Part shown: one piece after another, positions 5,806-57,324 of the stretch
Layout of the letters: the number at the start of each line of letters is the position of its first letter
How positions within the stretch are numbered: position 1 is the stretch's first letter
Source: Secundilactobacillus odoratitofui DSM 19909 = JCM 15043
Lineage (GTDB): Bacteria; Bacillota; Bacilli; Lactobacillales; Lactobacillaceae
Direction of reading: 5' to 3'
Length of the DNA stretch: 64,000 nt
Assembly: GCF_001434895.1 (NCBI RefSeq)
Contig: NZ_AZEE01000027.1
Location: forward strand, 93,173 to 157,172
Program-made: the position numbers and the translations under genes
Notes under the pieces: generated by a model
Told to the model about the DNA's origin: nothing
Database searches by the model: none
What the model saw: the letters and a program-made list of their open reading frames with translations, nothing else

Positions 5806-5996
5806 AGTCGGAAGTTACCAGAAATCGGGGGCTTGCCGTGAAATGACTGGTGGGGCTTTCCCACCAGTCAGGGTCAAATTAAAGACCCGCACGACCTTTG
5901 GTGGGGCTTGAATTTGAGGCCCGAGACCGACCTTTGGCTCGGACCGACCCCACGGCAACACCGCCCCCGATTTCTGGTAACTGGAGACGGCAGTCT
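5806..5996 (-). repeat. structured intergenic element, copy 1 of 5
   Basis: A perfect 20-bp terminal inverted repeat, AGTTACCAGAAATCGGGGGC (5813-5832) with its complement (5963-5982), encloses three internal stem-loops. These are ACTGGTGG/CCACCAGT (about 5846-5868), TCAAATT/AATTTGA with an inner CCCGC/GTGGG, and a CCGAG/CTCGG stem. Read on the minus strand it carries the core shared by all five copies (GTGGGGTCGG, AAGCC..., GAGTCTT-like, then TTTCACG). Copy 4 at 47.5 kb is the closest relative. The remaining intergenic DNA (5675-5805, 5997-6091) shows nothing else. Confidence 0.7.
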
Positions 5997-6091
5997 CTGA
6001 ACTAATTTGAAAAATGGTAGTCTACGAATTACTGATAATCACCTAAAATTTGTCAACAGGCCATCCACATACCCGATATTGCGTAAAAAGG

Positions 6092-6126
6092 CAAAAAAAT
6101 ATCCGCCCCCCCGGACGGATATTTAT
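6092..6126 (-). terminator. terminator of the metalloprotease gene
   Basis: On the minus strand ATATCCG and CGGATAT arms close a G-rich loop and run into a stretch of T residues, directly downstream of the protease stop codon. Confidence 0.75.
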
Positions 6127-6147
6127 TTCTAGTTATTCATCTGTCGA

Positions 6148-6807
6148 TTAACGGTAACTTTGTTTTAAGCCATTCACATCAGGCTTAGAAACTGATTGTG
6201 ACCGTGTTGCGTAATACATAACACTTGCTTTACCAACGTTATGTTGTAACCCAAGTGCGTGACCTAATTCATGTTCAGCAACGTGAGCACGTTCAGCCTT
6301 TGAATACTTGTAACGGCTAGCAACATTTCGATAAACATATGACTTCGCACTTGCCATCACTTTCAATGAATGAATCGTTGAATTGTTATAGTAAGACGAG
6401 TAGGTGATGCCGACGGTACCGTTTGTACTGCTCTTAGCATTAGCCGTTGATAGCGTAATGTCTGCTTTGCCCTTAGTTGGCACTAAATCAATGACGCCTG
6501 ACTTATTCCAACGTGATACGGCGGTTTTCCAAACGGACTTATAATAACTTGAACCACTTGAAATCTTGTAAGTGATCGTGCTTGATTTCCACCGCTTAGA
6601 AGCAGGTGTTAAGCTAGCTGAGCCGGTTGCATTGATATCACTTGCTGATGACACGGTATTGGCTAAAATACTGGTCTGAATCTGGGCCCCGCTACCATCT
6701 GACTCTGTTACGATCTTGGCACTTGCTTGATTACTTGATACAAAACTCAAACCTGCTGCAACTGCGACAATAGCAACTAAACGACCTAAAACATTTTTCT
6801 TATTCAC
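6148..6807 (-). CDS. secreted matrixin-like zinc metalloprotease
   Basis: Exported 219-residue protein with a signal peptide (residues 1-30, basic start, hydrophobic core, then SNQASA before the likely cut). The mature part ends in a zinc protease active site HELGHALGLQH (about residues 178-188), the HExGHxLGLxH form of matrixins (M10-like), followed by SVMYY as the Met-turn. The start is GTG at 6807 with GGAG about eight bases upstream. It is a single gene with its own terminator. It probably acts at the cell surface or in the medium on peptides or proteins; the substrate is unknown. Related small secreted proteases are common in lactobacilli. Confidence 0.85.
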   Translation of the reverse strand: MNKKNVLGRLVAIVAVAAGLSFVSSNQASAKIVTESDGSGAQIQTSILANTVSSASDINATGSASLTPASKRWKSSTITYKISSGSSYYKSVWKTAVSRWNKSGVIDLVPTKGKADITLSTANAKSSTNGTVGITYSSYYNNSTIHSLKVMASAKSYVYRNVASRYKYSKAERAHVAEHELGHALGLQHNVGKASVMYYATRSQSVSKPDVNGLKQSYR

Positions 6808-7198
6808 TGATGAGTCTCCTTTAAATAAACCAGGTTGTCTCGACTATCAGCTTTTTCGTAATGTCTCCAAATAAACTTATATACACAGAACAAAAGAGAA
6901 GTGCGTATCCCACAAATACATGTGTTGCAAACGATTGCTCAAAAAAAGAGCAAGTTGTCCCCGTGAGTTAATTATTGACCCCCCAATAAGTAACACAACA
7001 CCGAAACTATAACACCGGATTCCAAGCTTTACCATTACAGAAATGTTACAAAAATGAGAAGGGGCTTGCTTGTGAATTAACCATTTTAACCAATTTTAAC
7101 CAAAGTTTACCGGTTTAATAAGCTTACAAATAGTAACAACGTTATAACGATTTCAAAATTTATCTCATAAACCGTTTAATTCACAAGTAAATTATTTT
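6808..7198. other. upstream region of the metalloprotease
   Basis: Non-coding and AT-rich. It holds an imperfect inverted repeat (TTGTGAATTAA near 7076 and TTAATTCACAA near 7174) and short CTC/GAG stems near 6950. No promoter stands out with confidence and there is no gene. Confidence 0.35.
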
Positions 7199-7248
7199 CA
7201 AAAAAAGATACTTTCCCTAGAAATTGGTCTAGACAAAGTATCTTTTTT
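7199..7248. terminator. orphan terminator-like hairpin
   Basis: AAAAAAGATACTTT and AAAGTATCTTTTTT arms flank a smaller TCTAGA-type stem. The A-run and T-run allow termination on either strand. No gene ends here, so it may close a short untranslated transcript. 7274-7485 holds nothing I recognise. Confidence 0.55.
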
Positions 7249-7485
7249 AGTTTAACTAGAAATAAATATCCGTTACCTTTTTACGAATTCATTTGCCACG
7301 ATGGAGACAATCACCATGACTTCCAGAATCGTACCGGTGCAACCTCACTTTGAATAAAAGCCAAAGTTGCTAATTAAATCGTGCTTAATCGTTACAGTTA
7401 ATTTGGGGGGTAGTATTAACTCAACTGGGACTCGATTGCTCGAATCAAAAGGTAAACTTTTAAAGCTAAATTTAAAATAATCTTG

Positions 7486-7607
7486 TAAAAAGCTCATGAG
7501 AGCATAATAACCCGGCCAGGTCTCTCTCTTGTCCGGGTCGTGTCACTAGAAAGCTTCTCTAGTGCTGAGCAATTTTATTTAATTAATCTAAATCAACTTT
7601 AATTCAA
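7486..7607 (-). ncRNA. small RNA, copy B of a paralogous pair
   Basis: On the minus strand a strong promoter (TTGCAC at 7636-7641, 17-base spacer, TATAAT at 7613-7618) precedes about 120 nt with no reading frame. The transcript holds GCTCAG, a stem CACTAGA/TCTAGTG, ACACGACCCG, a second stem, CCGGGTT, and a final short hairpin GCTC-TCAT-GAGC followed by TTTTT. Box order matches copy A (2930-3036), while the first stem has a different sequence, which argues for a conserved structured RNA rather than chance. Confidence 0.65.
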
Positions 7608-7789
7608 GACTCATTATACATACGATCTATGGTTTGTGCAAGCCTTTTTTTAACTTTTGTAGAAAGTTTTTTGCATCGCGTTGATATCACACGTGCTGCC
7701 TTCATCTATGCCAACTTAGTAGCAGAAAATCATGCATCTCTCGCTACTTTGGCATATGATTAGGATATCTTATATTGGAGGTTTTTGCA

Positions 7790-8731
7790 ATGCGAAACGT
7801 GTACTTCAACCACGACGGTAATGTCGACGATTTAGTTTCCCTACTATTGTTGTTACAAATGCCAGACGTTAACCTATTGGGCGTTGGTGTTACTGATGCC
7901 GATGGTTACGTTGGTCCAGCATCTTCGGCTTCTCGTAAGATTATTGACTTATTCGGGCACGAGGATCGTAAACCTGTTGATGTTGCCAAATCAAATTCTC
8001 GTGCGGTTCACCAATTTCCAAAAGAATGGCGCCTAAGTGCTTTTTCGTTTGACGATTTTCCCATTTTAAACGAACACGGTCCCGCAAAAACGCCCCTTGC
8101 TGACAAACCTGGCCACCTTGATATGATCGAAAAAATCCAAAACGCCGATGCCCCCGTCACGTTAGTTATGACTGGGCCCTTAACTGATTTGGCCCGTGCA
8201 CTCACAATCGAGCCAAGTATTGCTGATAAAATTGATCGCCTATTTTGGATGGGCGGTGCCATGAACGAACAGGGTAACGTAGCAGAACCTGAACAAGATG
8301 GCACCATGGAATGGAACGCCTACTGGGATCCTGAAGCCGTCAAAACCGTCTGGGATTCAAGTCTCGCCATTACCGTCGTTAGTTTGGATAGCACGGACCA
8401 AGTGCCGCTAACACCTGAACTACGTGCGCGTTGGGCAACCCAACGACGTTATCCCGCTCTGGATCTCATCGGTCAAGGCTACTCGTTAGTCCACTCCTTT
8501 GAAGCTAATTCTACCTATTATTTATGGGATGTCTTAACAACACTAGTTAGCCGTTATCCTGAATTAGTGGATAGTAAGCCCATCAAGAGTGACGTGATAG
8601 CTTCAGGACCAGCTGCCGGCCGAACTTTCATTACCGAACAGGGTCGTGATGTCACCTTCGTCACCAGCGTCCACGCTGACGCTTTTTACGATAAAATTGA
8701 TGAGTTAGCTCAATCCGCAACTGAAAAATAA
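7790..8731 (+). CDS. nucleoside hydrolase (IunH family)
   Basis: Cytosolic enzyme of the inosine-uridine nucleoside hydrolase family, which splits ribonucleosides into base and ribose for salvage. The metal-binding N terminus reads HDGNVDDLVS (residues 7-16), a known variant of the usual DTDPGIDD. LVMTGPLTDLARAL (about residue 125) and FWMGGAMNEQGN (about 155) are family blocks. The 313-residue length is typical. The start is ATG at 7790 with GGAGG seven to eight bases upstream; an upstream TTG frame extension lies inside the ribosome site. It is monocistronic and shares a bidirectional terminator with the convergent EAL gene. Substrate range cannot be read from sequence. Confidence 0.87.
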   Translation: MRNVYFNHDGNVDDLVSLLLLLQMPDVNLLGVGVTDADGYVGPASSASRKIIDLFGHEDRKPVDVAKSNSRAVHQFPKEWRLSAFSFDDFPILNEHGPAKTPLADKPGHLDMIEKIQNADAPVTLVMTGPLTDLARALTIEPSIADKIDRLFWMGGAMNEQGNVAEPEQDGTMEWNAYWDPEAVKTVWDSSLAITVVSLDSTDQVPLTPELRARWATQRRYPALDLIGQGYSLVHSFEANSTYYLWDVLTTLVSRYPELVDSKPIKSDVIASGPAAGRTFITEQGRDVTFVTSVHADAFYDKIDELAQSATEK

Positions 8732-8778
8732 TGGTTAGAGGTGATCTGAAAATTTTAGATCAACCTTCCCCGGACACA

Positions 8779-8830
8779 ATAAAAATGGTTCAAGTTAAGT
8801 GTAATTTGCATAACTTGAACCATTTTTTTA
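8779..8830. terminator. bidirectional terminator
   Basis: A 17-bp perfect stem (AAAAATGGTTCAAGTTA and its complement) has an A-run on one side and a T-run on the other. It serves both the nucleoside hydrolase and the convergent EAL gene. Confidence 0.85.
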
Positions 8831-8834
8831 TTTA

Positions 8835-9500
8835 TTAGAGAAAACTAGCCTGCAATTCGTCTGGCAAGACCGGCTTGGAATAAAAGAAGCCTTGGCAACG
8901 ACTGACACCGATTGAGGCAACCATTTCCAAATCACTTCTAGTTTCGATGCCCTCCAGCGTAAACCGTAATTTTTCACGTTGTGCCAGGGTCATCCAATTG
9001 ATAATTGTCGGTCTTAATTCACGCAAAGTCGCCCCTTGGCGACGTAAATTTTGAATCGCAAATTTCAGCGTATCAACGAAAGGTAGTAAATCAACCGTTT
9101 CATCATAGGTATTATCCGACCCAACATCATCAATCGCAATCAAGATGCCAGCCTCATGATAAGCTGGTGCCATCCGTTGAATCACCGCCAACGTAGGTGC
9201 TTTAACCAATTCAACCGTTAACGTAACCGTGCCGTTTTGACTATTCACGAAGTCAATAAACTTGGCTTGAGTGCTTGCATCGGCAAACTGAGCCGTCGTC
9301 AAATTAATCGTTACGTTTTTGAGTTTGAGGTGCGGTAAAACCTGCTTCATTAGCCTCAGTTGGGTATCGGCATCGATATCAAAGTGATCTGGCAAGCGCC
9401 AGTTCCGTTCAGTCGCATCCCACGTGCGAAGGAGTAATTCGTAGCTGATAGCGCGCTGCTGCTCAATATTAAAAATCGGTTGAACAAAATAAGTGTACAT
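8835..9500 (-). CDS. EAL-domain protein, probable c-di-GMP phosphodiesterase
   Basis: A stand-alone EAL domain of 221 residues, predicted to hydrolyse cyclic di-GMP. The signature is YELLLR instead of EALLR (about residue 20), but the other metal and catalytic blocks appear kept: INLT (about 66), VELV (about 93), IDDVGSDN (about 122), a lysine in TLKFAI, and LEGIET (about 183). It could therefore be active. There is no signal or membrane segment. The ATG at 9500 has GGAG eight bases upstream. It lies downstream of a diguanylate cyclase gene on the same strand, with a terminator-like hairpin (9529-9563) between its likely promoter and start. Confidence 0.85.
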   Translation of the reverse strand: MYTYFVQPIFNIEQQRAISYELLLRTWDATERNWRLPDHFDIDADTQLRLMKQVLPHLKLKNVTINLTTAQFADASTQAKFIDFVNSQNGTVTLTVELVKAPTLAVIQRMAPAYHEAGILIAIDDVGSDNTYDETVDLLPFVDTLKFAIQNLRRQGATLRELRPTIINWMTLAQREKLRFTLEGIETRSDLEMVASIGVSRCQGFFYSKPVLPDELQASFL

Positions 9501-9851
9501 CGTCTAGTCTCCATTATTGTCATAACATCAAAAAACGGTGGAAGTCGCCGTGACATCCCCCGTTTTAACGTTAATATTCTAAATTTAATTGCCAAAACCG
9601 TGCTCATACCCCATGAATTACCGTTTTGGTTTTATAGCGACTAATACTTGTAACGCTTTTTCCCACTCTATTCCTACAATTATTTTAACACTCTTGATTA
9701 AATATGCTAGAAATTCTTATCAAAACTTTTGAATCAAATTCAAGACGACATATCCTGTCTCATCGGCCTTTGTAGCCTTTAAAAAGTCATTTAAAAAGTA
9801 ATCGCGTTATAACCTTTTCACGGTTACCGTCCTATTTTTCATAAGTGGTAT
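9501..9851. other. EAL-GGDEF intergenic region with an attenuator-like hairpin
   Basis: At 9529-9563 the minus strand forms AAAACGG...CCGTTTTTT with an inner GGA..GTC/GAC..TCC stem. It looks like an intrinsic terminator placed just upstream of the EAL ribosome site. It could end transcripts from the cyclase or attenuate EAL expression. I find no conserved GEMM (c-di-GMP riboswitch) core. The remainder is AT-rich without signals. Confidence 0.45.
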
Positions 9852-10979
9852 CTAATGTTTGACTTGACCTTCAACCGTTAGTTGGTCACGGCCATTTTGC
9901 TTGGACTGATACAGATAAGCATCGGCACGCTCATAAACCGTTTCAAAGGTTTCGTCTTCGTCTGAGAGTGCGGTTAGTCCCAGCGACAAGGTAATGTGAA
10001 CCGTAACCTCTTCATAACTAAAGTAGGCCATTTTAACGTGTTCCTGTAGCGTCTGAACAAACGGTATCACTTCGGCAATATCGGCCATAAAAATGACGTT
10101 GAACTCCTCTCCGCCAGTTCTGTAAAACGTCGGCTCTAGTTCAGCCACTTGCTTTAATTCGGTTAACACGAGCTTGCCAATTTCACTTAACACACGATTA
10201 CCGGTGGCGTGACCATACGTGTCATTCACGTTTTTAAAGTAATCTATATCAAACATCAAGAGACTCATTGGTTGTTTTTTCTGCCGTGCTAACGCAAATT
10301 TTGTCACGCTATCACTACGAAAGGCAAAAAAACTACCAGCCTGAGTTAACGTATCAAGATTAACCTGTTGTTCCAAACGATGATGTTCAAGTTCCGTCAC
10401 CCGTTCAGTTGACCAGTAAAAAGCAGTAAACATGTTCATCAACAAAAACATCACGATGCTCATAGTGACGCTCAACGTCGTTAATTGGGTTTGGCTTAAC
10501 CAAAAATCCAAGCCAATCCATAAGACCAGTTCCATCCGTAATAACCAGTTACCATTGATCACATACCGATACAAATATATCAACACTAATATAATGATTA
10601 GGAATGCAACTGAAACGTAAAAATTAGCACTATTTAAATTGTTATTTGCTGCCCAAAAGGCCATTGCAATAACACTGCGCGCTATGTATTCCGGCAACCG
10701 GACTTTTTGATCCAGTAACGGAATGAACAGGATGTAGAGCGCCCAATTCGTATAGGCCGATTCATTAATTGGATTTAAATACTGCGCCAACTGGCAAAAC
10801 GCAACCATTGCAAGCGTAAAAATCGTCGCAATCAGCCGGTCATAGCGGACCAAAATTAACCAGCGTTCTCGGTGTGTCTGAGTGGCTGCTGTTAAGCCTT
10901 GGTTATAAAACACAACGAATCCAGAAATGAAAAACGCTGCGATAATCGTTTGGATGACCCAATTGCCCCAGTCAAACAT
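9852..10979 (-). CDS. membrane-bound diguanylate cyclase (GGDEF)
   Basis: 375 residues: an N-terminal half with about six membrane segments (residues 5-190) as a probable sensor, and a C-terminal GGDEF domain that makes cyclic di-GMP from GTP. Visible are FDIDYFKNVNDTYGHATGN (about residue 240) and the active-site RTGGEEF (about 290), the GGEEF variant known to be active. No RxxD inhibition site stands five residues before GGEEF. The start is ATG at 10979, with AGGAGG six bases upstream; an earlier in-frame ATG overlaps that ribosome site. It pairs with the EAL gene downstream. Confidence 0.88.
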   Translation of the reverse strand: MFDWGNWVIQTIIAAFFISGFVVFYNQGLTAATQTHRERWLILVRYDRLIATIFTLAMVAFCQLAQYLNPINESAYTNWALYILFIPLLDQKVRLPEYIARSVIAMAFWAANNNLNSANFYVSVAFLIIILVLIYLYRYVINGNWLLRMELVLWIGLDFWLSQTQLTTLSVTMSIVMFLLMNMFTAFYWSTERVTELEHHRLEQQVNLDTLTQAGSFFAFRSDSVTKFALARQKKQPMSLLMFDIDYFKNVNDTYGHATGNRVLSEIGKLVLTELKQVAELEPTFYRTGGEEFNVIFMADIAEVIPFVQTLQEHVKMAYFSYEEVTVHITLSLGLTALSDEDETFETVYERADAYLYQSKQNGRDQLTVEGQVKH

Positions 10980-11097
10980 GACATACCTCCTAAAAGGATC
11001 TGATTTCATTATTGGACTATCGGCAATTGCGTGTCAAGGGTTAGAATAGAGTCATCAGAAATTAACTTACTAACTGCACTTTGAGAAGGACAAACTT

Positions 11098-12732: not shown

Positions 12733-12813
12733 CACAAGTGATTGCTAATTCTTTTCAAGTGCAGTTCCTTGGACAATCAAATTGAGTCTCATCGATAACT
12801 TGCCTTGCACAGT

Positions 12814-13135
12814 ACCTATTGCAAAATAGGTGCAATGAGCTCAAAAATAAGAGAGTGGGCAAAAACTCGTTTAGGTCCCGGCCATATATGAGAACCGGCC
12901 CGTGGATTCCTGGTTTTGGAATCTACGGGCCGGTTCTCATATATGGCCGGGACCTGAGTTTTGGCGCACGACCCAGCGAAGCTTGGAAGCCTATCTGGCG
13001 TTTAGACTAGATAACAGTCTTGAGATAAAGTGAAATTTTTTACTCACCTCGAATTAAGAAATTAATTCGATACTTACCAATATGGACTTTTTTCCCAGCC
13101 TCTTATGACTTAGTTGCACCTATTTCACAATAGGT
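12814..13135. mobile_element. MITE-like element
   Basis: A 322-bp non-coding element. Its ends are imperfect inverted repeats of about 50 bp (ACCTATTGCAAAATAGGTGC at 12814 against ACCTATTGTGAAATAGGTGC read inward from 13135), continuing through AAGAG-TGGG-AAAAA. Inside lies a perfect 31-bp hairpin (12873-12903 and 12925-12955) with GGATTCC/GGAATC in its loop. There is no transposase. Similar TGGG-AAAACTCG-AGGTCCCGGCC sequences are common in lactobacillus intergenic DNA, and parts recur here at 5594 and 61161. Confidence 0.65.
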
Positions 13136-13176
13136 TCTATATATTTAATGTGGCTACTATCGCGCAAATCGACGGC

Positions 13177-22747: not shown

Positions 22748-22762
22748 TGGTAACTGGAGACG
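22748..22762. repeat. remnant of the structured-element flank
   Basis: Fifteen bases, TGGTAACTGGAGACG, are identical to the right end and flank of structured elements 1 and 4 (5.98 and 47.68 kb). No left arm or core accompanies them, so this may be a decayed copy. The rest of 22588-22803 has no recognisable feature. Confidence 0.4.
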
Positions 22763-22803
22763 AAAGTTTCATTAATCTAAAATGAATATATCATTTCATA
22801 ATC

Positions 22804-39837: not shown

Positions 39838-39886
39838 TGGAGCCACTGAGAACGTCCAAATGACATCTCAGTGGCTCTTATTTTTA
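39838..39886 (+). terminator. terminator of the GDPD gene
   Basis: GAGCCACTGAGA and TCTCAGTGGCTC (perfect 12-bp arms) followed by TTATTTTT. Confidence 0.85.
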
Positions 39887-39892: not shown

Positions 39893-40097
39893 CACTACCA
39901 CTCCGGACTAGCGGACCTTGCCCATTGTAATGGGACCAGCTTCAGCCACGCAAAACCCACGTGTCTTACGCTTCGGTTGTGAGCCTCAAGAACCGAGTCT
40001 CACAACCGTCCAGTCAATCTAAGCGCTAAAGCGCAAAGATTGACTTGTCACTACTACGGACAAGCCCCGCTAGTCCTCCGTTCTCGTTACAATGTGG
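39893..40097 (+). repeat. structured intergenic element, copy 2 of 5
   Basis: Closing arms GGACTAGCGG (39905-39914) and CCGCTAGTCC (40067-40076). Inside are CCCATT/AATGGG, the core TGGGACCAGCTTCA, a stem CGGTTGTGAG/CTCACAACCG (39974-39983, 39999-40008), and a stem AGTCAATCT/AGATTGACT (40012-40020, 40037-40045) capped by GCGC-TAAA-GCGC. TTGTCACT follows. The right flank CTCCGTTCTCGTTACAATGTGG is identical to that of copy 5. Copy 3 follows in the opposite direction after about 180 bp. Confidence 0.75.
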
Positions 40098-40275
40098 TCC
40101 ACATCTTACAAAAAATATTGATTACTACTAATTCCATATAAACAGCAGATAAATTGTAAATTAGTTCAGCCAGTGACAATAACTACCCAGTACTTAATGT
40201 TTATTCGAGCGAACTAAATCTACTTCTGAGAGTCATGATTCACTTTTCAATCGTTCAGTAGCCGTAGTGCCAGAA

Positions 40276-40475
40276 GTAGTCTGGTTGGCGGGTGGTGGCA
40301 GTGATAAATGATGTTAGGGTGAAGTGACGCAAGGCGGACTTGGCCTTGGGTTACTTCACGCTTACATCATTGGACAGGTTTGAGACTTGTGGTTTTCAGC
40401 AAGGCTCAAACCTGAGGCGGAAAACGCGCAGCGGTTGAAGCCGGTCCCACAGCCACTAACCGCCAACCAGACTAC
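40276..40475 (-). repeat. structured intergenic element, copy 3 of 5
   Basis: Perfect 16-bp closing arms GTAGTCTGGTTGGCGG (40276-40291) and its complement (40460-40475). Inside are a long stem (AATGATGT/ACATCATT, GTGAAGT/ACTTCAC, CAAGGC/GCCTTG, 40307-40371) and a stem CAGGTTTGAG/CTCAAACCTG (40375-40384, 40405-40414). Read on the minus strand it holds the shared core CTGTGGGACCGGCTTCA, GAGCCT, AAGTCTCA and TATCACTGCCACC. 40098-40275 and 40476-40519 hold nothing else. Confidence 0.75.
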
Positions 40476-40519
40476 TGGCGGCCGAAGGCGGCAGTTAACT
40501 ACTAATTTTTTCTAAATGA

Positions 40520-47119: not shown

Positions 47120-47509
47120 GGTCCAATACTCCTTTAATCAGTCTCTTCAATTTGTTCCCAATGTTTAACAGTTTACCATGATTTAACCGCAAAAAAAGAT
47201 GACCTGTCAGGTAACCAGCCTAAGTTTTAGCAGAATTTAAAGTTATTCTTTACTTTATGATAATTACATACGCTGATTGGACGGCTTTATATTCCGTAAG
47301 AATGTACATCAATACAGTTAGCCATATCCCGACAAATCAACTTGATGGGCATAGCAAGCATACTGATTAGCACTTAAAAGTGAATGATCATTGCAACAAC
47401 ATGTTGACTCATAATCAATTTCGTTCAATTCACTTACCAGTAACAATTCACTTTTTTTGGTACGTTCCCCAAGGTAGTCCTGATTGACTTATTTTCAAAC
47501 AACAACCGT

Positions 47510-47700
47510 AGTCGGAAGTTACCAGAAATCGGGGGCTTGTCGTGAAATGACTGGTGGTTTTTCCACCAGTCAGGGTCGAATTGAAGACTCGCACGGGTTT
47601 TGGCGAGGCTTGAATTCGAGGTTCGAGACCGCCCTTCGGCTCGGACCGACCCCACGGCAACGCCGCCTCCGATTTCTGGTAACTGGAGACGGCAGTCTCA
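47510..47700 (-). repeat. structured intergenic element, copy 4 of 5
   Basis: Terminal inverted repeat AGTTACCAGAAATCGGGGGC (47517-47536) against 47665-47684, with one G-T change. Inside, ACTGGTGG/CCACCAGT, TCGAATT/AATTCGA and CTCGC/GCGAG take the place of the TCAAATT/AATTTGA and CCCGC/GTGGG pairs of copy 1, so both sides of each stem changed together. Flanks (GTAGTCGGA, GGAGACGGCAGTCTC) match copy 1. The rest of 47120-47509 is the AT-rich upstream region of the response regulator and holds no gene. Confidence 0.75.
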
Positions 47701-49305: not shown

Positions 49306-49306
49306 G

Positions 49307-49904: not shown

Positions 49905-49942
49905 TTGTAACCTGTAATTATTCTAAATTAAACCCCAAAATG
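49905..49942 (-). promoter_or_regulatory. ahpC promoter with possible PerR box
   Basis: On the minus strand TTTAAT and TACAAT are spaced by 17 bases, and the spacer holds TTAGAATAATTACAG (plus-strand 49912-49926). It matches the PerR consensus TTATAATNATTATAA at 12 of 15 positions. Peroxide control of ahpCF through PerR is common in Gram-positive bacteria. Confidence 0.45.
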
Positions 49943-50100
49943 AAAATTTTTCAAAAATAGGCTTACAAAGCTTGATAGCGTATACTTAACCTGTGACGTG
50001 CCAGATTAAGCCTAACGTTCTGGCACCGCTAATGGTCAACTTGACCACACCAATCCACATCATGATCGCCATAAATCAATTTCCAACTTGGAGGTTTTCT

Positions 50101-50781
50101 ATGAACAAGCAAAAACGACGTCGATTTAAAATCACCATTACAATTATTGTGATTGGGCTGATTATTGTTATTGGCTGGCGTTTTCGACTACAATTTAACG
50201 ACCTCGTCCACGCGATGTCAAACCGTCAGTTATTGATCGATACTTTTCAGCACCACGGACCAATCGATCTCATTACCTATACTGCATTACTGGTGGTTTG
50301 CATCTGGTTGCCTGGTGCACCCGTCGCTGTTCTAGCGATAGCAGCCGGTGTTTGTTTCGGTCATTGGACGGCCTTTTTACTCAACGTAATTGGCATGACA
50401 ATTGGCAACTTTGTCGCCGCAAACGTCATTCCAGATTTTTTCAAAACGCCCACTCACGGCTTTTCGAGGAAGCTGTACACCGATTTATTGAAAATTCAGC
50501 ACCCCAGGTTAGGGATCATTCTTGGCTACACAATTCCATTTATCCCGAGCACCGTCATTAATTTGGCCGCTAAACGGCTTATCACAAGACGCGAACAGTT
50601 GCTGGGGCTGTGTATGCTTGGCAGTGTAACGCCAGCGTTCCTCTATGCATTTGGTGGGGACGCAGCTCTCCGGGGAAACCTCAAGGCACTGCTACCAGTC
50701 GTGATTATCGGTGCACTACTCTTCGGGCTCATCTGGGTCATTCACATTGACCGCAAACGAATTCGAGCAAAAGCCGAGTAA
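50101..50781 (+). CDS. VTT-domain (DedA/TVP38-like) membrane protein
   Basis: 226-residue membrane protein with about five to six helices. The VTT block is seen in LPGAPVAVLAIAAGVCFGHWTAFLLNVIG (in part, about 78-105) and in GYTIPFIPSTVINLAAKRLI (about 142). These proteins are thought to act in lipid scrambling or membrane homeostasis. The ATG at 50101 has GGAGG six to seven bases upstream. Two small inverted repeats lie in its leader (GTGCCAG/CTGGCAC and TGGTCA/TGACCA, about 49998-50046), with no clear function. Confidence 0.82.
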   Translation: MNKQKRRRFKITITIIVIGLIIVIGWRFRLQFNDLVHAMSNRQLLIDTFQHHGPIDLITYTALLVVCIWLPGAPVAVLAIAAGVCFGHWTAFLLNVIGMTIGNFVAANVIPDFFKTPTHGFSRKLYTDLLKIQHPRLGIILGYTIPFIPSTVINLAAKRLITRREQLLGLCMLGSVTPAFLYAFGGDAALRGNLKALLPVVIIGALLFGLIWVIHIDRKRIRAKAE

Positions 50782-50839
50782 CGGAAACTTTTCTGCGTTA
50801 CGATTAAAGATAGCTTATGTATGAAAGTCAGGTAATTAA

Positions 50840-53359
50840 ATGCCAAATAAAATTGATCATATCGAAGTACGTGGCGGTAACGTCAACAACTTAAAAAACA
50901 TCGATGTCGATATTCCTTTGAACCAATTTGTCGCAATTTCAGGGCCATCGGGTTCGGGTAAAAGTTCGCTGGCATTGGGGATTTTATACGCAGAAGGATC
51001 TCGTCGCTATTTAGAATCACTATCAGCTTATACAAGAAGACGGATTTCACAAGGTAATCAATCTCAGGTGCACAGTGTAAAACACATTCCCTCTGCACTT
51101 GCCCTTCGTCAACGGCCAACGGTACCATCAGAGCGGTCGACGGTCGGCTCACTCACCGAGGCGTTTAACGTGATTCGTTTGATTTTTTCAAGACTCGGTT
51201 CAATCGTCTGCCCAAACGGCCACCGAATGGCGCCAACCATCAAAATTGCTCAGGCGATGGATCGCGCTGGCGCGGACATGGGCATGGTTACTTGTCCAAC
51301 CTGTGGCGTCCGATTTATGGCAACCAGCGCCGAAGATTTTTCTTTTAATTCTACCGGTGCTTGTCCAACTTGTGACGGCCTCGGTGTCGTCCGTGAACTG
51401 GATGAAAATAAACTGATTGGTGACGAGTCACTCTCGATTGACGAAGGCGTGGTGGCTTCTTGGCACCTACCTGGCCGTAACTTTATGCCCAAGGTCGTGG
51501 CAACTCTCGGTGTGAGGACTAACGTGCCCTACCGCGATTTAACGGCCAAGGAAAAACAAATTGTGCTGCATGGTGAAAAGAAGCAATACGCGGTTGATTT
51601 ATCATCAAGTACCGGCCGGGTTTTTCACATGGATAACGCGCTGTACGAGAACGCTTATGAGGCAGTCACGGACTCTTTAAAACGTGTGAACAGTGAGCGC
51701 TCCATTGCACGGATCAACCAGTTCTACCATTTCTCAACCTGTCCAACTTGCCATGGTTCACGGCTAAATCCTGAACGACTCACGCACTTAGTTGCGGGTC
51801 AAACAATTGCCCAGGTCGCCGATATGCAACTCGATCAGTTGGCCAACTGGGAGGCTCAGACGAAACAAGCTCTGCCTGATGACATGCAAAACCTTGCCAA
51901 CATCTTATTTACCGAACTTGACGACGACCTTCGTCCCCTACTTGAATTAGGGCTCGATTACCTCAGTTTGTCGCGAAACGGCAACACTCTATCAACTGGT
52001 GAACTGCAACGTATTCAGTTAGCCCGAACGTTACGGACTGAAACAACTGGTGTGCTTTACGTCCTTGATGAGCCCTCGATTGGTTTACATCCTGATAACA
52101 TCCGTGGTCTGATCGACGTTTTTCGTGAACTAATTGCGCAAGGTAACTCACTGGTCGTTGTCGATCACGAGGTCGACATTATCGACGCTGCTGATTGGGT
52201 GATCGAAATTGGACCTGGATCGGGCGAAGCCGGTGGCCAAGTCATCGCTCAAGGCACCCCGGAACAGTTGACGACCAATGCTAACTCATTGATTGGGCCG
52301 TTCATTTCTGGTCGGACAAGTATTTTACAAAATACCGCGCCAACAACGGCATCTCAGTCAACACAACTCAAAATCAGCGACTACTTTAACTTACACAATA
52401 TCGACATGACATTTCCAGATAATCAAGTTACGGCAATCACCGGTTTTTCTGGGGCCGGCAAGACCAGTTTGGTCCTCGATAGTTTGGTACCAGCAATCCA
52501 GGCGCAAAAAAAGCATCAACATCTCCCTCGCCAAGTCGCGGATCTTCAGACTGACTTACAGGATGTTGTCAGTGTTGATGCAACCCCCGTTGGCAAAAAT
52601 GCCCGCTCAACGTTAGCGACCTACACTAGCATTATGGATGCCCTCCGCCACCTATTTGCAGATCTACCAGAATCCAAAAAGCGCGGTTATGGTATTGCTG
52701 ACTTTTCTTATAACAACAAGGAAGGCGCTTGTCCAAACTGTGGTGGCTTAGGTAACATCACACTGGACATTCAATACCTACCGGACATGGAAGAAGTTTG
52801 TCCGGTCTGTCACGGGACTCGTTACAAACAAGAAATCCAAGAAATCAAGTGGCACGGCTATTCAATCGTCGACTTACTTGCGCTTTCCGTGAAGGATGCC
52901 ATTCCAGTTTTCAAAGGAGTTCCTAAAATTACACGTCAGCTCAAGCAGCTTTCACAAGTGGGTCTTGACTACTTACACCTCGGCGAAAGTACTCCAAGCC
53001 TATCTGGTGGTGAAGCACAACGCTTAAAGTTGGTCAGTCATTTGACTAAAAAACAAGCGGGGACGCTCTTTGTGTTCGATGAACCTTCAATCGGCCTACA
53101 TCCCCTAGATGTTCAAACGTTGTTGAAAATTATTGCGCGTCTCCGTGATAAAGGCGCGACCATCTTAATCATCACCCATGATTTAGATTTAATGCTTAAC
53201 GCCGATTACCTGATTGATATGGGGCCCCGGGGTGGTGCAGCTGGTGGTAAAATTGTTGCCACTGGTAACCCACTTGCGTTAGCGGCTAAGCCTAACAGCT
53301 TGACCACCAACTATTTAGCAGAACATTGGCAAAAATTTGACAGACCGACTTACGCATGA
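50840..53359 (+). CDS. UvrA-like ATPase (class II, drug-resistance type)
   Basis: 839-residue double ATPase of the UvrA family but about 100 residues shorter than the repair UvrA, as in UvrA2/DrrC-like proteins linked to drug tolerance. The first half has SGPSGSGKSSLALGILYAEG and zinc knuckles (CPTCGVRF, CPTCDGLG). The second half has TGFSGAGKTSLVLDSL and CPNCGGLG/CPVCHGT. Signature and Walker B motifs occur twice (STGELQRIQLART, LSGGEAQRLKLV, DEPSIGLHP). The short size suggests loss of the UvrB-binding insert. It stands before an Lsa-type ABC-F gene and may share a protective role; this is inference. Confidence 0.87.
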   Translation: MPNKIDHIEVRGGNVNNLKNIDVDIPLNQFVAISGPSGSGKSSLALGILYAEGSRRYLESLSAYTRRRISQGNQSQVHSVKHIPSALALRQRPTVPSERSTVGSLTEAFNVIRLIFSRLGSIVCPNGHRMAPTIKIAQAMDRAGADMGMVTCPTCGVRFMATSAEDFSFNSTGACPTCDGLGVVRELDENKLIGDESLSIDEGVVASWHLPGRNFMPKVVATLGVRTNVPYRDLTAKEKQIVLHGEKKQYAVDLSSSTGRVFHMDNALYENAYEAVTDSLKRVNSERSIARINQFYHFSTCPTCHGSRLNPERLTHLVAGQTIAQVADMQLDQLANWEAQTKQALPDDMQNLANILFTELDDDLRPLLELGLDYLSLSRNGNTLSTGELQRIQLARTLRTETTGVLYVLDEPSIGLHPDNIRGLIDVFRELIAQGNSLVVVDHEVDIIDAADWVIEIGPGSGEAGGQVIAQGTPEQLTTNANSLIGPFISGRTSILQNTAPTTASQSTQLKISDYFNLHNIDMTFPDNQVTAITGFSGAGKTSLVLDSLVPAIQAQKKHQHLPRQVADLQTDLQDVVSVDATPVGKNARSTLATYTSIMDALRHLFADLPESKKRGYGIADFSYNNKEGACPNCGGLGNITLDIQYLPDMEEVCPVCHGTRYKQEIQEIKWHGYSIVDLLALSVKDAIPVFKGVPKITRQLKQLSQVGLDYLHLGESTPSLSGGEAQRLKLVSHLTKKQAGTLFVFDEPSIGLHPLDVQTLLKIIARLRDKGATILIITHDLDLMLNADYLIDMGPRGGAAGGKIVATGNPLALAAKPNSLTTNYLAEHWQKFDRPTYA

Positions 53360-53365
53360 TAAGTT
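53337..53365 (+). promoter_or_regulatory. candidate promoter of the ABC-F leader
   Basis: TTGACA at 53337-53342 inside the last codons of the UvrA-like gene, a 17-base spacer and a weak -10 TAAGTT. It would start a leader transcript near 53372. Confidence 0.4.
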
Positions 53366-53379
53366 AGTGACACGAAATA

Positions 53380-53554
53380 AAAGGGAGGCTTCAGCCGTTG
53401 AGAATCTAAGCCAATTGTTAGAACTTAGCACCGTCATCACCCATCAAGGGGGATACTGCACAGTTCTGGCGTTGACCTAGATTTCTCTGGCGAGCCTAAA
53501 GTCCGCGAATTAACGCGGATCAGCGCACCTGGAGAAAATCTTCAGGTGCTTTTT
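53380..53554 (+). promoter_or_regulatory. attenuator leader of the ABC-F gene
   Basis: The leader holds a GGGAGG-led micro-frame (TTG AGA ATC TAA, 53398-53409) and a long stem: GAGAATCTA (53400-53408) with TAGATTTCTC (53478-53487), and AGAACT with AGTTCT (53420-53425, 53462-53467). A hairpin TCCGCG/CGCGGA follows, then a terminator GCACCTG/CAGGTGC with TTTTT (53525-53554) about 50 bases before the gene. ABC-F resistance genes are often induced by ribosome stalling on such leaders. Here a stalled ribosome would block the first stem. Confidence 0.6.
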
Positions 53555-53606
53555 GTATGCCAAAATTGTGTCCACGGTGTCCACAGATTCAAGGAGGACC
53601 ACTATT

Positions 53607-55106
53607 ATGTCGACAATTCAACTCACTCACCTCACCTTTGCCTATCCTGGCAAACCCAACTTATTCACTGACCAGTCCCTACAATTTGACAGTTCTTGGA
53701 AACTGGGCCTAACCGGCCGCAATGGCCGTGGCAAAACCACGTTATTAAACCTACTTCGCGGTAAATTGAGTGGTACCGGTCAAATTAAGTCACCACTGAG
53801 CTTAAATTATTTCCCGCAATCGATTCCCGACCCAACGCTTCAAACGTGGCAAATAATTGATGCCATCAGTCCTGTAGAGCTTTGGCTGGTACAACGCGAA
53901 CTAGCTATGATGAACACTGACGACGCGCTGTTATATCGGTCTTTTTCAAGCCTATCTGGTGGCGAACAAACCAAGGTCTTATTGGCCACGATTTTCGCTG
54001 ATGATACCGGTTTTGCACTATTAGATGAACCTACGAACCACCTTGATATTGCTGGCCGTCAGCAAATTGCTAACTATCTGCACAGTAAAAAACAGGGGTT
54101 TATCGTCATTTCACATGATCGGCAATTTTTAAACACCGCCACGGACCACACCTTAACCATTGAAAAGCAGCAACTCGTCATCACACAGGGCAATTTTGCA
54201 GCTTACGAACGCGCTAAAGCGGTGAAGGACCAAACGGAACTTGCTGAACAAAGTAAATTAAAACAAGAGATCGGTCGTCTCAAACAAACTGCTGCTGACA
54301 AGCGTCAGTGGAGTCGTTCACGTGAAGGTGACAAATACGGCAATCCACATAAAAAGGGCAGTGGTGCCGTCTACGATACCGGTTTTATCGGTGCCCGGTC
54401 AGCTCGTGTAATGCAAAAGGCAAAAAACCTTGAACATCGGCTGGATCAATCCATTGAAGACAAATCAGCGTTATTGAAAAACATTGAATTTGTTGAACCG
54501 CTGAAGATGAATTACCAACCAGATCATCACGACACACTCCTGCGCGTTCATCAGGTTCAACTGTATTACGACCAAGTACCACTGCTAAAAGAATCGGTTA
54601 GTTTTGATATCAAACGTGGTGAACGCGTTGCTTTAATTGGCCCAAATGGCAGCGGTAAAAGTTCGCTGATTGCGGCTATTTTAGGCCACTTCACTGGTGA
54701 CATCACTGGTACGGTTGACCTCACTCAAACAGCTACCCGTAGTCAAGTTCGCCAATTTTACCCGGATAACGTTGGCGACCTGGCAAGCTTTGCTGAAGCC
54801 CACCACTTAAGCCACCAAGACCTATTGAACAACCTCAAAAAACTGGGTGTCGAACGCGACGCCTTTAAGACACCCATTCAAGCGTTATCTTCTGGCCAAC
54901 AAAAGAAAGTGGAATTGGCAGCCAGCCTGGTGACACCAACTAGTTTTTACCTCTGGGACGAACCGCTCAACTACCTGGACGTTTTTAACCAAGAACAGTT
55001 AGAAGACCTGATTTCGACCGTTCAACCCACTATGTTATTCACCGAACACGACGCAGCGTTTATCGAACACGTCGCCACAAAAAAGATTGAACTTTTCCCA
55101 CGGTAA
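53607..55106 (+). CDS. ABC-F ribosomal protection protein, Lsa type
   Basis: 499 residues with two ATPase domains and no membrane part, like Lsa(A) in size. Domain 1 has GRNGRGKTTLLNLL and SSLSGGEQTKVLLA; domain 2 has GPNGSGKSSLIAAI and LSSGQQKKVELAASL, with the Lsa-like WDEPLNYLDVFNQEQLE. The linker between (about 205-310), rich in Lys and Gln, is the part that reaches the ribosome's peptidyl-transferase centre. Relatives protect against lincosamides, streptogramin A and pleuromutilins. The ATG at 53607 has GGAGG nine bases upstream. Attenuator control upstream fits drug induction. Confidence 0.85.
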   Translation: MSTIQLTHLTFAYPGKPNLFTDQSLQFDSSWKLGLTGRNGRGKTTLLNLLRGKLSGTGQIKSPLSLNYFPQSIPDPTLQTWQIIDAISPVELWLVQRELAMMNTDDALLYRSFSSLSGGEQTKVLLATIFADDTGFALLDEPTNHLDIAGRQQIANYLHSKKQGFIVISHDRQFLNTATDHTLTIEKQQLVITQGNFAAYERAKAVKDQTELAEQSKLKQEIGRLKQTAADKRQWSRSREGDKYGNPHKKGSGAVYDTGFIGARSARVMQKAKNLEHRLDQSIEDKSALLKNIEFVEPLKMNYQPDHHDTLLRVHQVQLYYDQVPLLKESVSFDIKRGERVALIGPNGSGKSSLIAAILGHFTGDITGTVDLTQTATRSQVRQFYPDNVGDLASFAEAHHLSHQDLLNNLKKLGVERDAFKTPIQALSSGQQKKVELAASLVTPTSFYLWDEPLNYLDVFNQEQLEDLISTVQPTMLFTEHDAAFIEHVATKKIELFPR

Positions 55107-55145
55107 TGGGTACACTATTTTCAATTAACCTGTGGGGGTGCTACT

Positions 55146-56477
55146 ATTCTCGTTTTTATAACTGGACTGTCATTTGCTTTACTTCTATATTGCGTTTTCA
55201 GTGGTATTCCCCTGGCCTACGCGTTACTCGTTTGCTGGGGACTCTTCATGGGGTTAGGGCTGCGTGAATATCGACTTGGGGAATTACTCCGCTTTTCCTG
55301 GACTGGTGCTAAAACTTCATTCGGTGTCATCAAAACGCTGTTATTAATTGGCGCAACGATTGGGATTTGGATGGCAAGTGGCACAATTTCAAGCATCGTG
55401 TACTATGCCTTTTTACTGATCAATCCACACCTGTTTGTGGTTGTGACATTTTTAGTCTGTGCCGCAGTATCGTTTGTAATTGGCACCTCATTTGGTACCG
55501 TCAGCGTGATTGGTTTGCCACTCATGCTCATTGCCAAAAGTGGGCACACTAATCTTGACCTGGTGGCGGGCGCTATCATCGCCGGTATTTACTTTGGCGA
55601 CCGCTGCTCACCACTATCTTCCAGCGCCAGTTTGGTGGCAACAATCAGTTTGACAAACTTATTTGATAACATTAAAAATATGCTACGAACCTCCTGGTTA
55701 GCGCTTTTAGTGAGTACACTAGCCTATGGTGCACTGTCGTTGATATTTCCTCTCAATCATTTGAGTCACACACTTTTAGGTCAGTTAAACGCGCAATTTA
55801 TCGTGGCCTGGCCACTCCTATTACCTGCGGCCGTTATTCTGATATTGTCCCTTTTCAAACGTCCGTTGGTTGAATCCATCACGGTGAGCATCCTCCTGGC
55901 AATCGTCTTGGGACTCCACTACCAACAAACATCTTGGTTAAAACTGGGGCGTGCGGTGGTACTAGGCGTTCAAGCTGGTCATGGTCAACTGATTGGTGGT
56001 GGCGGCCTGATTTCAATGGTAACGCCACTTACCATCGTCTTTTTGTCGTGTTGCATTTCCGGCATTTTAAACCACTTAACACAGCTCAAGCAGCTTGAAC
56101 ACCGCCTCACTCAAACTGAGTTAACGCCACGCCTTCGATTTGGTCTAACCGCTGCAATGGCCTTAATGACAAGCGCAATTGGCTGTAATCAATCCGTGGC
56201 CATCATTATGACCAATACTTTAATCAAAAATAACTATCAGCATCAAAATAATGCGTTAGCAGTAGAATTGGAAAACACAAGCGTACTACTGGCCCCAATC
56301 GTGCCATGGAATATTGCGGTGTTTGTGCCAATCTCAATTCTGGGAACCAGCTTTATTGGCTACTTACCTTACGCTTTTTTCCTGTACTTGGTACCGATTG
56401 TCTACGCTATTTTTTACGTCCCTCATCAGCAGAAAGGAAGGTGTCACCTTGCCACAAATTCCAACGCTCGATCTTAA
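55146..56477 (+). CDS. NhaC-family Na+/H+ antiporter-like protein
   Basis: 443-residue membrane protein with about 12 helices and the NhaC blocks GTSFGTVSVIGLPLM and GIYFGDRCSPLSSSASLVA. The first ATG (55248) falls after a whole predicted helix. Reading back in frame gives FITGLSFALLLYCVF and GIPLAYALLVCWGLF, typical of NhaC N termini. No ATG, GTG or TTG lies in the right place, but an ATT at 55146 has GGGGGTG just upstream, so a rare ATT start is proposed; the minimal certain gene is 55248-56477. No T-box precedes this copy. It overlaps the next gene by 29 bp. Confidence 0.75.
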   Translation: MLVFITGLSFALLLYCVFSGIPLAYALLVCWGLFMGLGLREYRLGELLRFSWTGAKTSFGVIKTLLLIGATIGIWMASGTISSIVYYAFLLINPHLFVVVTFLVCAAVSFVIGTSFGTVSVIGLPLMLIAKSGHTNLDLVAGAIIAGIYFGDRCSPLSSSASLVATISLTNLFDNIKNMLRTSWLALLVSTLAYGALSLIFPLNHLSHTLLGQLNAQFIVAWPLLLPAAVILILSLFKRPLVESITVSILLAIVLGLHYQQTSWLKLGRAVVLGVQAGHGQLIGGGGLISMVTPLTIVFLSCCISGILNHLTQLKQLEHRLTQTELTPRLRFGLTAAMALMTSAIGCNQSVAIIMTNTLIKNNYQHQNNALAVELENTSVLLAPIVPWNIAVFVPISILGTSFIGYLPYAFFLYLVPIVYAIFYVPHQQKGRCHLATNSNARS

Positions 56478-57021
56478 CAAAACGGCTTACGTTGCCATTG
56501 ATCTTCAAGACGATATTTTAAACGCGCCCGGCATTGACGCAGCTCATCGCCATGCTGTTTTGACCGCTAACAATCAGTTAGCCGATTACTTTAAAAATAC
56601 CGGTGCTTTGATCGTTCAAGTGACGGTCAACGTGGCTTCAGTTCAGAATTTATTTCCGAGACGTGAAGTCACTCAACCAGTGACGCCAAATCAGGCAAAA
56701 CTGGTGATGCCAATTGCCATCGACTCTGAGGCAACCAACGTCATTAAAATTACTAAACATAATCCTGGCGCCTTTTTTGGCACTGATTTAGATTTGCAGC
56801 TACGCCGTCGTGGCATTGATACTATCATCCTCGGTGGTATCTCGACCTCTAACGGTGTCTATGCAACTGCGCTCGACGCTTATCAAAATGCCTATCGTCT
56901 AATTGTTGTTGAAGATGCCTGCATGGATCGTGACGCGGAGAAACATGCCTTTTTCTTCGACAAGATGTTTAACCGAATCAGTTATGTCACAACGACCAGT
57001 GACTTATTAGCGTCCTTTTAG
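56449..57021 (+). CDS. isochorismatase-fold hydrolase lacking the catalytic cysteine
   Basis: 190-residue protein of the isochorismatase/nicotinamidase fold. The Asp (YVAIDLQDD, about 18) and Lys (IKITKHNPGAFFGTDLD, about 103) of the usual triad are there. Where amidases have a cysteine the sequence reads ISTSNGVYATALDA, with Gly instead, as in true isochorismatases such as EntB/PhzD. It is therefore not a cysteine amidase. The start is TTG at 56449 with AAGGAAGG upstream, inside the end of the antiporter gene, so the two are co-translated. Confidence 0.82.
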   Translation: MPQIPTLDLNKTAYVAIDLQDDILNAPGIDAAHRHAVLTANNQLADYFKNTGALIVQVTVNVASVQNLFPRREVTQPVTPNQAKLVMPIAIDSEATNVIKITKHNPGAFFGTDLDLQLRRRGIDTIILGGISTSNGVYATALDAYQNAYRLIVVEDACMDRDAEKHAFFFDKMFNRISYVTTTSDLLASF

Positions 57022-57050
57022 TGATATTTGTCATTAATGATTCTTTATTC

Positions 57051-57085
57051 AGGAGCACTAGTCTGAGGCTAGTGCTCCTATTGTT
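57051..57085 (+). terminator. terminator with a duplicated tail
   Basis: AGGAGCACTAG and CTAGTGCTCCT (11-bp arms), then ATTGTTGTC. The tail AGTGCTCCTATTGTTGTCTA is repeated once with one change (57071-57112). Confidence 0.65.
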
Positions 57086-57118
57086 GTCTAAGTGCTTCTA
57101 TTGTTGTCTAAACGTGCC

Positions 57119-57324
57119 CACTACCACTACGACTAGCGGCGCTTTCCGGCTGCTGTGGGATCAGCTTCAGACGGACTTAAAACCGTCCGTCTTACGCTTC
57201 GGTTCTGAGCCTCATAGACCCGAGTCTCAGAACCGTCCAGAACTTGTAACCGCCAAAGGCGCTAACAAGTTCTTGTCACTGCCACCGAAAAGCGCCGCTA
57301 GACTCCGTTCTCGTTACAATGTGG
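57119..57324 (+). repeat. structured intergenic element, copy 5 of 5
   Basis: Closing arms CTAGCGGCGCTTT (57133-57145) and AAAGCGCCGCTAG (57289-57301). Core TGTGGGATCAGCTTCA. Stems GACGGAC/GTCCGTC (57170-57176, 57185-57191), CGGTTCTGAG/CTCAGAACCG (57200-57209, 57226-57235) and AGAACTTGT/ACAAGTTCT (57239-57247, 57265-57273) capped by CGCC-AAA-GGCG. Then TTGTCACTGCCACC. Against copy 2 the same stems carry different paired bases. 57325-57576 holds only the uppP leader with a small TTGGTC/GACCAA stem. Confidence 0.78.

Follow-up and report, generated by a model that had tools for sequence, protein, structure and literature searches.

Divergent structured repeats in Lactobacillaceae probably derive from a MITE-like element with two outward-pointing ends

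Structured RNAs are encoded at the ends of some mobile elements, as bridge RNA in IS110 and as omega-RNA in TnpB/IscB systems. REP/REPIN sequences occur as inverted dimers, lie mostly downstream of genes and undergo compensated changes in their stems (PMC3733652, PMC3116915). REP dimers and RAYTs are described in the first of these papers, in which GT pairs were read as a sign of RNA function and Lactobacill- is not mentioned (PMC3733652). A noncoding RNA survey of 50 genomes reported, as MRSC, covarying motifs that recur in many copies per genome and possibly act as DNA; its main text contains no Lactobacill- term (PMC11109978).

The repeats described here share features with all of these systems and with MITEs, and differ from each. 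Like MITEs, they are short and intergenic, have no recognised gene, carry terminal repeats (TIRs) and target duplications, and number about a hundred copies; unlike MITEs, they are built from two large, multi-hairpin divergent domains with strand-specific covariation, and a parent transposon was not found among the TIR matches listed and fetched from G323, a genome of another genus. Inverted dimers and compensated stem changes are common to our repeats and REP/REPIN sequences, whereas branched domains of about 200 nt and TIRs with 7-9-bp duplications set ours apart. Like the MRSC, the repeats are structured, covarying motifs that occur many times in one genome; the MRSC example illustrated, MRSC-65-2, is a single long stem (PMC11109978). 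Finally, structured RNA-like domains at element ends resemble the IS110 and TnpB/IscB arrangements, but here two domains point outward, TIRs and duplications are present, the elements examined showed no enzyme gene, and no Rfam family matched at gathering score.

Within the window, the 64-kb stretch of DNA analysed here, an earlier note had proposed five copies sharing one plan. All five are in place and the stems quoted for them are present in the sequence. Searched to E 10 with a covariance model, R2, the window gave exactly these five matches (E 1.1e-21 to 5.7e-18). R2 was trained on 52 family members, three of them copies 1, 2 and 4, with copies 3 and 5 left out; these rows were chosen (alignment A5) from the 102 of alignment A4 after opposite-strand echoes and poor rows had been removed. 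Each domain spans about 180-220 nt and has three hairpins. A long stem closes it, one hairpin comes first, and the other two are enclosed by a GGAC/GTCC stem. Copies 1 and 4, which belong to a separate subfamily, fit the core form GTGGGnCnGCTTCA given in the earlier note inexactly.

Copy 2 (39893..40090, minus strand; conserved core 39926-40055) is an A-type domain, a type defined by a score of 150 or more with a second covariance model, R1, in whose training set copy 2 was included; it scored 188.5 bits with R1 and 95.9 bits with R2 (E 1.5e-21). Copy 5 (57119..57317, minus strand; core 57151-57283) is likewise A-type (R1 189.5 bits, R2 96.4 bits) and solo, no partner domain having been found for it. 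Copy 3 (40266..40483, plus strand; conserved core 40297-40454) is a partner-type domain with a long first hairpin and lies outside both training sets (R1 104.8 bits; R2 81.2 bits, E 5.7e-18). The third subfamily is represented by two solos on the plus strand, copy 1 (5804..5989; core 5834-5957; R1 63.7 bits, matched at L001:1525-1710; R2 81.2 bits) and copy 4 (47502..47697; core 47538-47659; R1 71.8 bits, matched at L004:1505-1700; R2 86.7 bits), which are 88% identical over 144 nt. Copy 4 faces the 3' end of an ahpF-like gene. ORFs of 81-111 amino acids from a mechanical ORF list overlap copies 4 and 5, so that the earlier statement that no protein gene lies inside any copy holds for recognisable genes only. 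The four such ORFs that were scanned had no Pfam match up to E 0.1 and copies 1-3 have no overlapping ORF of 80 or more amino acids; a coding-sequence reading was therefore rejected.

The five copies are a small sample. By merging R1, blastn and two R2 matches, and leaving out matches that overlapped a better one, we counted about 125 copies, a few weak fragments included, in the genome of the window (G000); R2 alone gave 138 matches, the model counts for this genome running to a ceiling of 150. Close neighbours in this genome were divergent in 41 of 41 cases. Therefore copies 2 and 3, which had been treated as separate, are the two ends of one composite element (39893..40483) in which copy 2 (outward on the minus strand) and copy 3 (outward on the plus strand) flank a 175-nt spacer, as placed by R1 matches at 133065-133262 (-) and 133438-133655 (+) of the contig (window offset 93172). 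Copies 1, 4 and 5 do stand alone. The composite element begins right after a terminator-like inverted repeat and T-rich run of the upstream GDPD gene (39840..39885, plus strand), read directly in the sequence. Neighbours less than 700 nt apart were also divergent in the fetched stretches of genome G029 (10/10) and of five further genomes (17/18). Over 28 pairs, the identities of the A and partner domains correlate (Pearson 0.71, Spearman 0.50, Mantel 0/2000), in line with co-movement of the two. The unit is often a divergent domain pair rather than a single copy.

Tandem genes flank 22 of the 41 pairs, convergent genes 15 and divergent genes 4 (the gene-context counts leave out 4 of 85 units that lacked flanks), which reduces the reported preference for convergent genes or gene ends to a tendency. 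Because pairs are divergent in every one of these settings, we dropped the idea that each copy forms part of a convergent gene's 3' end.

We examined pairing in 26 copies of the copy 2 type, including copy 5 and copy 2 itself. Standard pairs filled 97.6% of cells (shuffled mean 83.6%), and 42 of 68 pairs had changed on both sides. None of 500 shuffles reached any of five pairing measures, and sliding the partner by 1-3 columns left pairing at 40.2% at most, which excludes chance. The earlier proposal that the stems covary under selection on RNA or single-strand structure is thus borne out, but not the strands listed with it. Read on those strands, the mismatches comprised 13 G-U and 64 A-C (p = 3e-9); being G-U on the opposite strand, they identify the functional strand as the reverse complement, pointing outward from the element. 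On shared pairs of that strand, G-U exceeded A-C in 49 A-type copies (113 versus 26, p 4e-14) and in 39 partner-type copies (96 versus 39, p 1e-6), as it did in 17 copies from other species of the genus (27 versus 3, p 8e-6); the left domain of the G323 elements had no such asymmetry (18 versus 20). Tolerance of G-U fits RNA and single-stranded DNA alike and distinguishes neither, and we infer that the folded strand is RNA.

These data bear on whether the structure matters solely to DNA. The domains could be complex inverted repeats read by a transposase, with compensation arising by template switching and with no function as RNA. According to published work, hairpins can be created and maintained by template switching (PMC8794818); the family has TIRs, duplications and amplification, and the promoter scan reported below revealed no clear promoter. 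Template switching should, however, be strand-blind, so the excess of G-U on the outward strand in three sets counts against this explanation, as do the conservation of unpaired core motifs between two genera and the persistence of the domains beyond their spacers and flanks. We consider it unlikely.

If the domains are RNA, they might form a multi-copy noncoding RNA gene family transcribed from promoters in the spacer and acting in trans, for example by sponging up a protein or regulating the element's own mobility. Selection on the outward strand and the divergent layout are in keeping with this. Among 14 aligned G323 copies, 7 carry a TATAAT resembling a -10 box in their spacer, and TACAAT occurs in 6 of the 11 copies of genome G010. 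A-type ends are also strongly co-oriented with genes (46 of 49). Yet no convincing -35 was seen by eye for the TATAAT-like stretch, itself close to a palindrome. The G000 promoter scan gave no clear enrichment upstream of A-type domains (mean 8.45 versus 8.17 downstream, p = 0.014; shuffled upstream 8.39) and none for the partner type (p = 0.86); upstream flanks are not alignable, and 44 of the 85 units in G000 are solos. Such a family therefore strikes us as rather doubtful, if a little less so than a purely DNA-level role.

The mobile origin that had been raised as a possibility is supported in relatives. In G323, a 14-bp TIR, CTAAAGGTTGAAAG, occurs at 63+69 places (132) versus 0 for the control, and the TIR of G010 at 119+124 places (243) versus 1+1. 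Target duplications of 7-9 bp flank 17 of the 24 G323 elements examined and 17 of the 20 full-length ones, compared with 2 of 552 re-paired flank controls. At one orthologous site the element is present in G323, whereas 70 nt and no element separate the matched genes in G391; at the same site G240 and G223 have about 425 nt of other sequence. Three marks of a MITE (target duplication, TIRs and, at one site, presence/absence) are thus found in G323, the TIRs also in G010. In G000, aligned A-type copies retain a short CTGYC-type end only, and no target duplication can be detected: an 8-mer is shared at 6 of the 41 pairs and at 5 of the 39 solos, no more than in re-paired controls. No autonomous copy with the same ends was found among the TIR matches listed and fetched from the draft G323 genome. 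Two candidates were rejected: L399 (G323, 3.7 kb between TIRs) has other genes inside and no duplication, and L199, with a 1.6-kb gap between domains, contains a beta-lactamase-like ORF, named by eye.

The form of these ends bears on two further explanations. A REP/REPIN relative moved by a single-strand (HUH/RAYT-type) transposase would account for inverted pairs, intergenic placement, strand bias and the GTAG that several domains carry at their 5' end. Against it, the TIRs of the G323 elements come with 7-9-bp duplications, a product not known from HUH transposition, and the domains, with several junctions, are far from the 20-40-nt palindrome with a GTAG or CGTC tag that characterises REP/REPIN sequences; we regard such kinship as very unlikely. 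Outward structured domains near element ends might also suggest a guide-RNA scaffold of the omega-RNA or bridge-RNA kind, its outward end taking flanking DNA as guide, and insertion sequences can indeed use bridge RNAs (PMC11208160). The elements looked at contain no enzyme gene, their domains have no Rfam match at gathering score, and no other family of that kind is known to combine two outward copies with TIRs and duplications. We find this the least credible of the explanations.

The Rfam searches agree with the earlier note, which had recognised no named family. There was no match at gathering score in the window or in ten loci: three loci searched to E 10 gave 10 matches, none at gathering score, and seven further loci gave none up to E 1. 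The sole match inside a domain, SSRC8_2 over the partner domain of L033, reached 15.9 bits (gathering 72; E 0.65). A known RNA family was accordingly rejected. R2 matched at least 94 of 397 Lactobacillaceae genomes, up to 8 candidates per genome being scored, and these counts are probably conservative because R2 keeps only 25 pairs. One other genome has at least 150 copies. Among 23 named genomes, three had matches: Schleiferilactobacillus shenzhenensis (26), Lacticaseibacillus brantae (2) and S. harbinensis (1). Searching plasmids by blastn with five queries gave no match, although one copy makes a weak query when the family is this diverse, and of 67 exact-pattern matches in viral contigs none scored with R2 at E 0.1. 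The top results of a search of the open-licence literature included no published description, and this family of structured mobile elements in lactic acid bacteria is apparently undescribed.

Taken together, our data indicate that the repeats probably represent, as copies or as remnants, a non-autonomous, MITE-like transposable element of Lactobacillaceae with two structured ends. A complete unit would comprise two outward-pointing domains, a spacer and, in young copies, TIRs, on which a transposase supplied in trans may act.

What happens after insertion differs between parts of the element. In G323, identity is 90-92% in the domains, 77% in the spacer and 71-79% in the flanks (shuffled 60%). 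In G000, the domains retain 77% (shuffled 60-61%), while spacer and flanks are at 58-59% (shuffled 57-58%); there, the domains can still be recognised, unlike the spacers and target duplications. Four species sharing one orthologous neighbour gene (86-94% amino acid identity) all keep the domain, with compensation at 11 of 19 variable pairs and broken pairing in 10 of 268 cells; 0 of 1000 shuffles were as high. A single flanking gene establishes orthology of this site; of the four genes on the opposite side, only two are related. The compensatory changes, and domains that outlast spacers, suggest that the domains act where they lie, probably as RNA. Likeness of the domains could also result from gene conversion among copies. 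With less assurance, we envisage that the domains are kept after fixation through such local action, our best guess being that read-through transcripts carry them in their 3' part as a stable RNA structure that might serve as stabiliser or insulator, a role proposed for REP-type repeats. It would also render insertions between genes tolerable. The placement of A-type ends further favours the main reading: 46 of 49 follow the direction of most genes, and 41 of 49 have a parallel gene on their 5' side.

In conclusion, the family is abundant and yet has no Rfam match at gathering score, and its unusual layout couples mobile DNA to RNA structure. More tentatively, the two outward structured RNAs may, alongside the DNA ends, be working parts of a new class of mobile element, with RNA domains retained by the hosts across Lactobacillaceae after mobility was lost, amounting to some 100 related RNA modules dispersed in each genome. 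The age series, with intact ends in one genome and bare domains in another, permits direct tests, in food bacteria that are well cultured, of host takeover of mobile-element RNA.

All five structured intergenic elements reported in the earlier note were present in the window, where a search with model R2, built on the conserved domain core from 52 family members, returned exactly five. When copies 1, 2 and 3 were used as blastn queries, dozens of further copies were found in the same genome, the 2.75-Mb draft G000. Merged with matches to R1, a covariance model made from 26 copies, these amounted to 124 places, or 126 after the addition of two R2-only matches.

On the 26-sequence alignment the fold comprised 68 pairs, with 97.6% of cells paired, and none of 500 shuffles reached the observed pairing or covariation values. 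The compensatory stem changes first noticed in the sequence were borne out, with 42 of the 68 pairs changed on both sides. In the orientation originally listed, non-Watson-Crick combinations were A-C or C-A in 64 cases and G-U in 13 (p = 3e-9), and the outcome was the same when the test was restricted to pairs predicted on both strands. Such an A-C excess would be expected with folding of the complementary strand, on which the mismatches read G-U. Selection on structure stood, and the listed strand had to be reversed. Counted over pairs predicted on both strands and read on the outward strand, G-U outnumbered A-C by 113 to 26 in 49 copy-2-like (A-type) domains with R1 scores of at least 150, by 96 to 39 in 39 partner-type domains of the copy-3 kind, by 27 to 3 in 17 copies from other species of the genus, and by 45 to 21 in 22 right domains of another genome, G323. 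Only the left domain of G323 lacked the asymmetry (18 vs 20). Selection on a folded single strand of outward polarity is very likely, and that strand is likely to be RNA rather than single-stranded DNA.

Read on the functional strand, a domain consists of a long closing stem, GCnGTGA, hairpin 1, GGAC, hairpin 2 (GAGAC...GGCTC), GAGG, hairpin 3 (AGAC...GGCT), GTCC-CACAGC and the return of the closing stem, which in some copies contains a symmetrical purine internal loop. Hairpin 1 is highly variable in sequence with its pairing kept. To our knowledge, this structure is unlike known MITEs. The statement that no named RNA family is involved held, as no Rfam match attained its gathering score; the sole weak match inside a domain was SSRC8_2 at locus L033 (15.9 bits vs a gathering score of 72). 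Of the published kinds found, REP dimers (PMC3733652) come closest, together with the mobile or repeat sequence candidates that a recent ncRNA survey (PMC11109978) describes; the family may be an unnamed entry in that survey's supplements.

The 126 places in G000 fall into 44 solo domains and 82 domains in 41 close pairs, one of which is formed by copies 2 and 3. Without exception the 41 pairs diverge when read on the functional strand, and the orientation of neighbour genes makes no difference to this. Across 28 comparable pairs the divergences of both members correlate (Pearson 0.71, Spearman 0.50, Mantel 0/2000), and the two domains therefore have a common history. Neighbours less than 700 nt apart were divergent in 10 of 10 cases in fetched stretches of G029 and in 17 of 18 in those of G323, G231, G262, G346 and G435 together; among the 150 matches listed for G346, 9 of 10 neighbours with starts at most 1 kb apart were divergent. 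Contrary to this usual divergence, same-strand tandem copies occur at L146:1276-1448 and 1501-1673 (G013), where the first folds at -65.6 kcal/mol and the second, more stably, at -91.8 kcal/mol, and at L156:1251-1443 and 1501-1693 (G008).

In G010, the unit carries long terminal inverted repeats (TIRs), found at 119 places on one strand and 124 on the other vs 1 and 1 for a control pattern; ten facing TIR pairs among the matches listed span about 740-880 bp. The G323 unit, mostly 500-556 bp long, is bounded on either side by the 14-bp repeat CTAAAGGTTGAAAG, which occurs at 63 and 69 places, with none for the control. Of 24 G323 elements picked from the best blast hits and listed TIR pairs, 17 were flanked by a perfect 7-9-bp duplication (8 bp in nine, 7 bp in six, 9 bp in two), one base of play being permitted at the right end; re-paired flanks gave 2 of 552. 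The other seven were three full-length elements (L381, L405 and L409), one 3.7-kb chance pairing and three short derivatives with the same TIRs (L401, L402 and L403; 201, 293 and 319 bp), probably internal deletions. At the L255 site, G323 has the element; in G391 the two gene matches are 70 nt apart, and in G240 and G223 some 425 nt of other sequence lie there instead. No transposase was found in the elements looked at, and target duplication was not detectable in G000. It is nearly certain that the family is a mobile element with paired structured ends; by its behaviour it is a MITE.

The domains evolve more slowly than the surrounding DNA. In 22 of the 24 G323 units (anchors could not cut two), identities were 90 and 92% for domains, 77% for the spacer and 71 and 79% for flanks, against 60% when shuffled; six G010 units gave 91 and 93% for domains and 76% for the spacer (shuffled 58-62%). 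In 28 of the 41 G000 pairs, domains averaged 77% identity (maximum 92%; shuffled 60-61%) and 60-nt spacer and flank windows 58-59% vs 57-58% shuffled, spacers of the closest pairs being scarcely better at 57-68%. The simplest reading of these identities is an old burst in G000, after which ends and spacers would have decayed and domains been kept; alternatively, gene conversion between copies could have kept the domains alike. Retention of domain function in place is suggested. A solo adjoins the same orthologous gene (86-94% amino acid identity) at its 3' end in four of the genus's species. With the structure derived from one of the four, its 67 pairs were invariant in 48 cases, compensatory in 11, one-sided in 4 and broken in some species in 4. 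Paired cells numbered 258 of 268 (shuffled mean 245) and doubly changed pairs 11 (shuffled 3.3), neither equalled in 1000 shuffles. Since just two of the four opposite-side genes are related, a shared origin of the site by descent is likely, though unproven.

Across the family, 94 of 397 genomes and 11 of 40 genera had R2 matches, as did 3 of 23 named genomes. Within the window's genus, 11 of 15 genomes had matches (138 in G000, 92 in G010, 1-6 in nine) and four had none. Among the named relatives seen, Secundilactobacillus folii was the nearest, with 68% protein identity in one flanking gene, and it had no R2 match. R1 matched 13 of 60 relatives, with none of the 23 from other families in the order among them. 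One complete 2.71-Mb genome held at least 150 matches; no plasmid or viral members were found with the queries used. Among the G000 matches listed, from the best 150 candidates scored, contig C5 had no copy over 594 kb (86-680 kb), the genome average being about one per 22 kb.

Other features of the window were also seen. Positions 22748-22785 match the copy 4 3' end at 82% with the rest of the domain absent, possibly a relic end. A near-perfect 38-bp inverted repeat at 12873-12955 (inner arm CGTGGATTCC/GGAATCTACG) resembles a hairpin elsewhere in the genome (L132:268-346), possibly a second small hairpin family. At 61051-61245 an internally complementary unit of about 93 bp is present twice in tandem. 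A T-box leader match at 58476-58721 (+; L022:2858-3103; 88.2 bits, slightly under the gathering score of 93) precedes an ORF at 58779. The ORF at 3788-5584 (+) matches choline/carnitine acyltransferase (PF00755, E 4.5e-100), which we would not have expected in a Lactobacillaceae genome.

In G000, a gene neighbours 121 of the outward ends, 78 of which face its 3' end and the other 43 its 5' end; the 41 pairs lie between tandem (22), convergent (15) or divergent (4) genes. Relative to the contig majority gene direction, defined from element-adjacent genes, 46 of 49 A-type ends run along it, vs 111 of 161 neighbouring genes (p = 4e-5), and 40 of 50 partner-type ends oppose it. No promoter signal stands out. 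Because the 5'-side gene is parallel at 41 of 49 A-type ends (the 3'-side gene at 26 of 48), read-through transcription is the preferred RNA source. Placement and orientation are consistent with our guess that the domains may serve a 3'-end role in such read-through transcripts.
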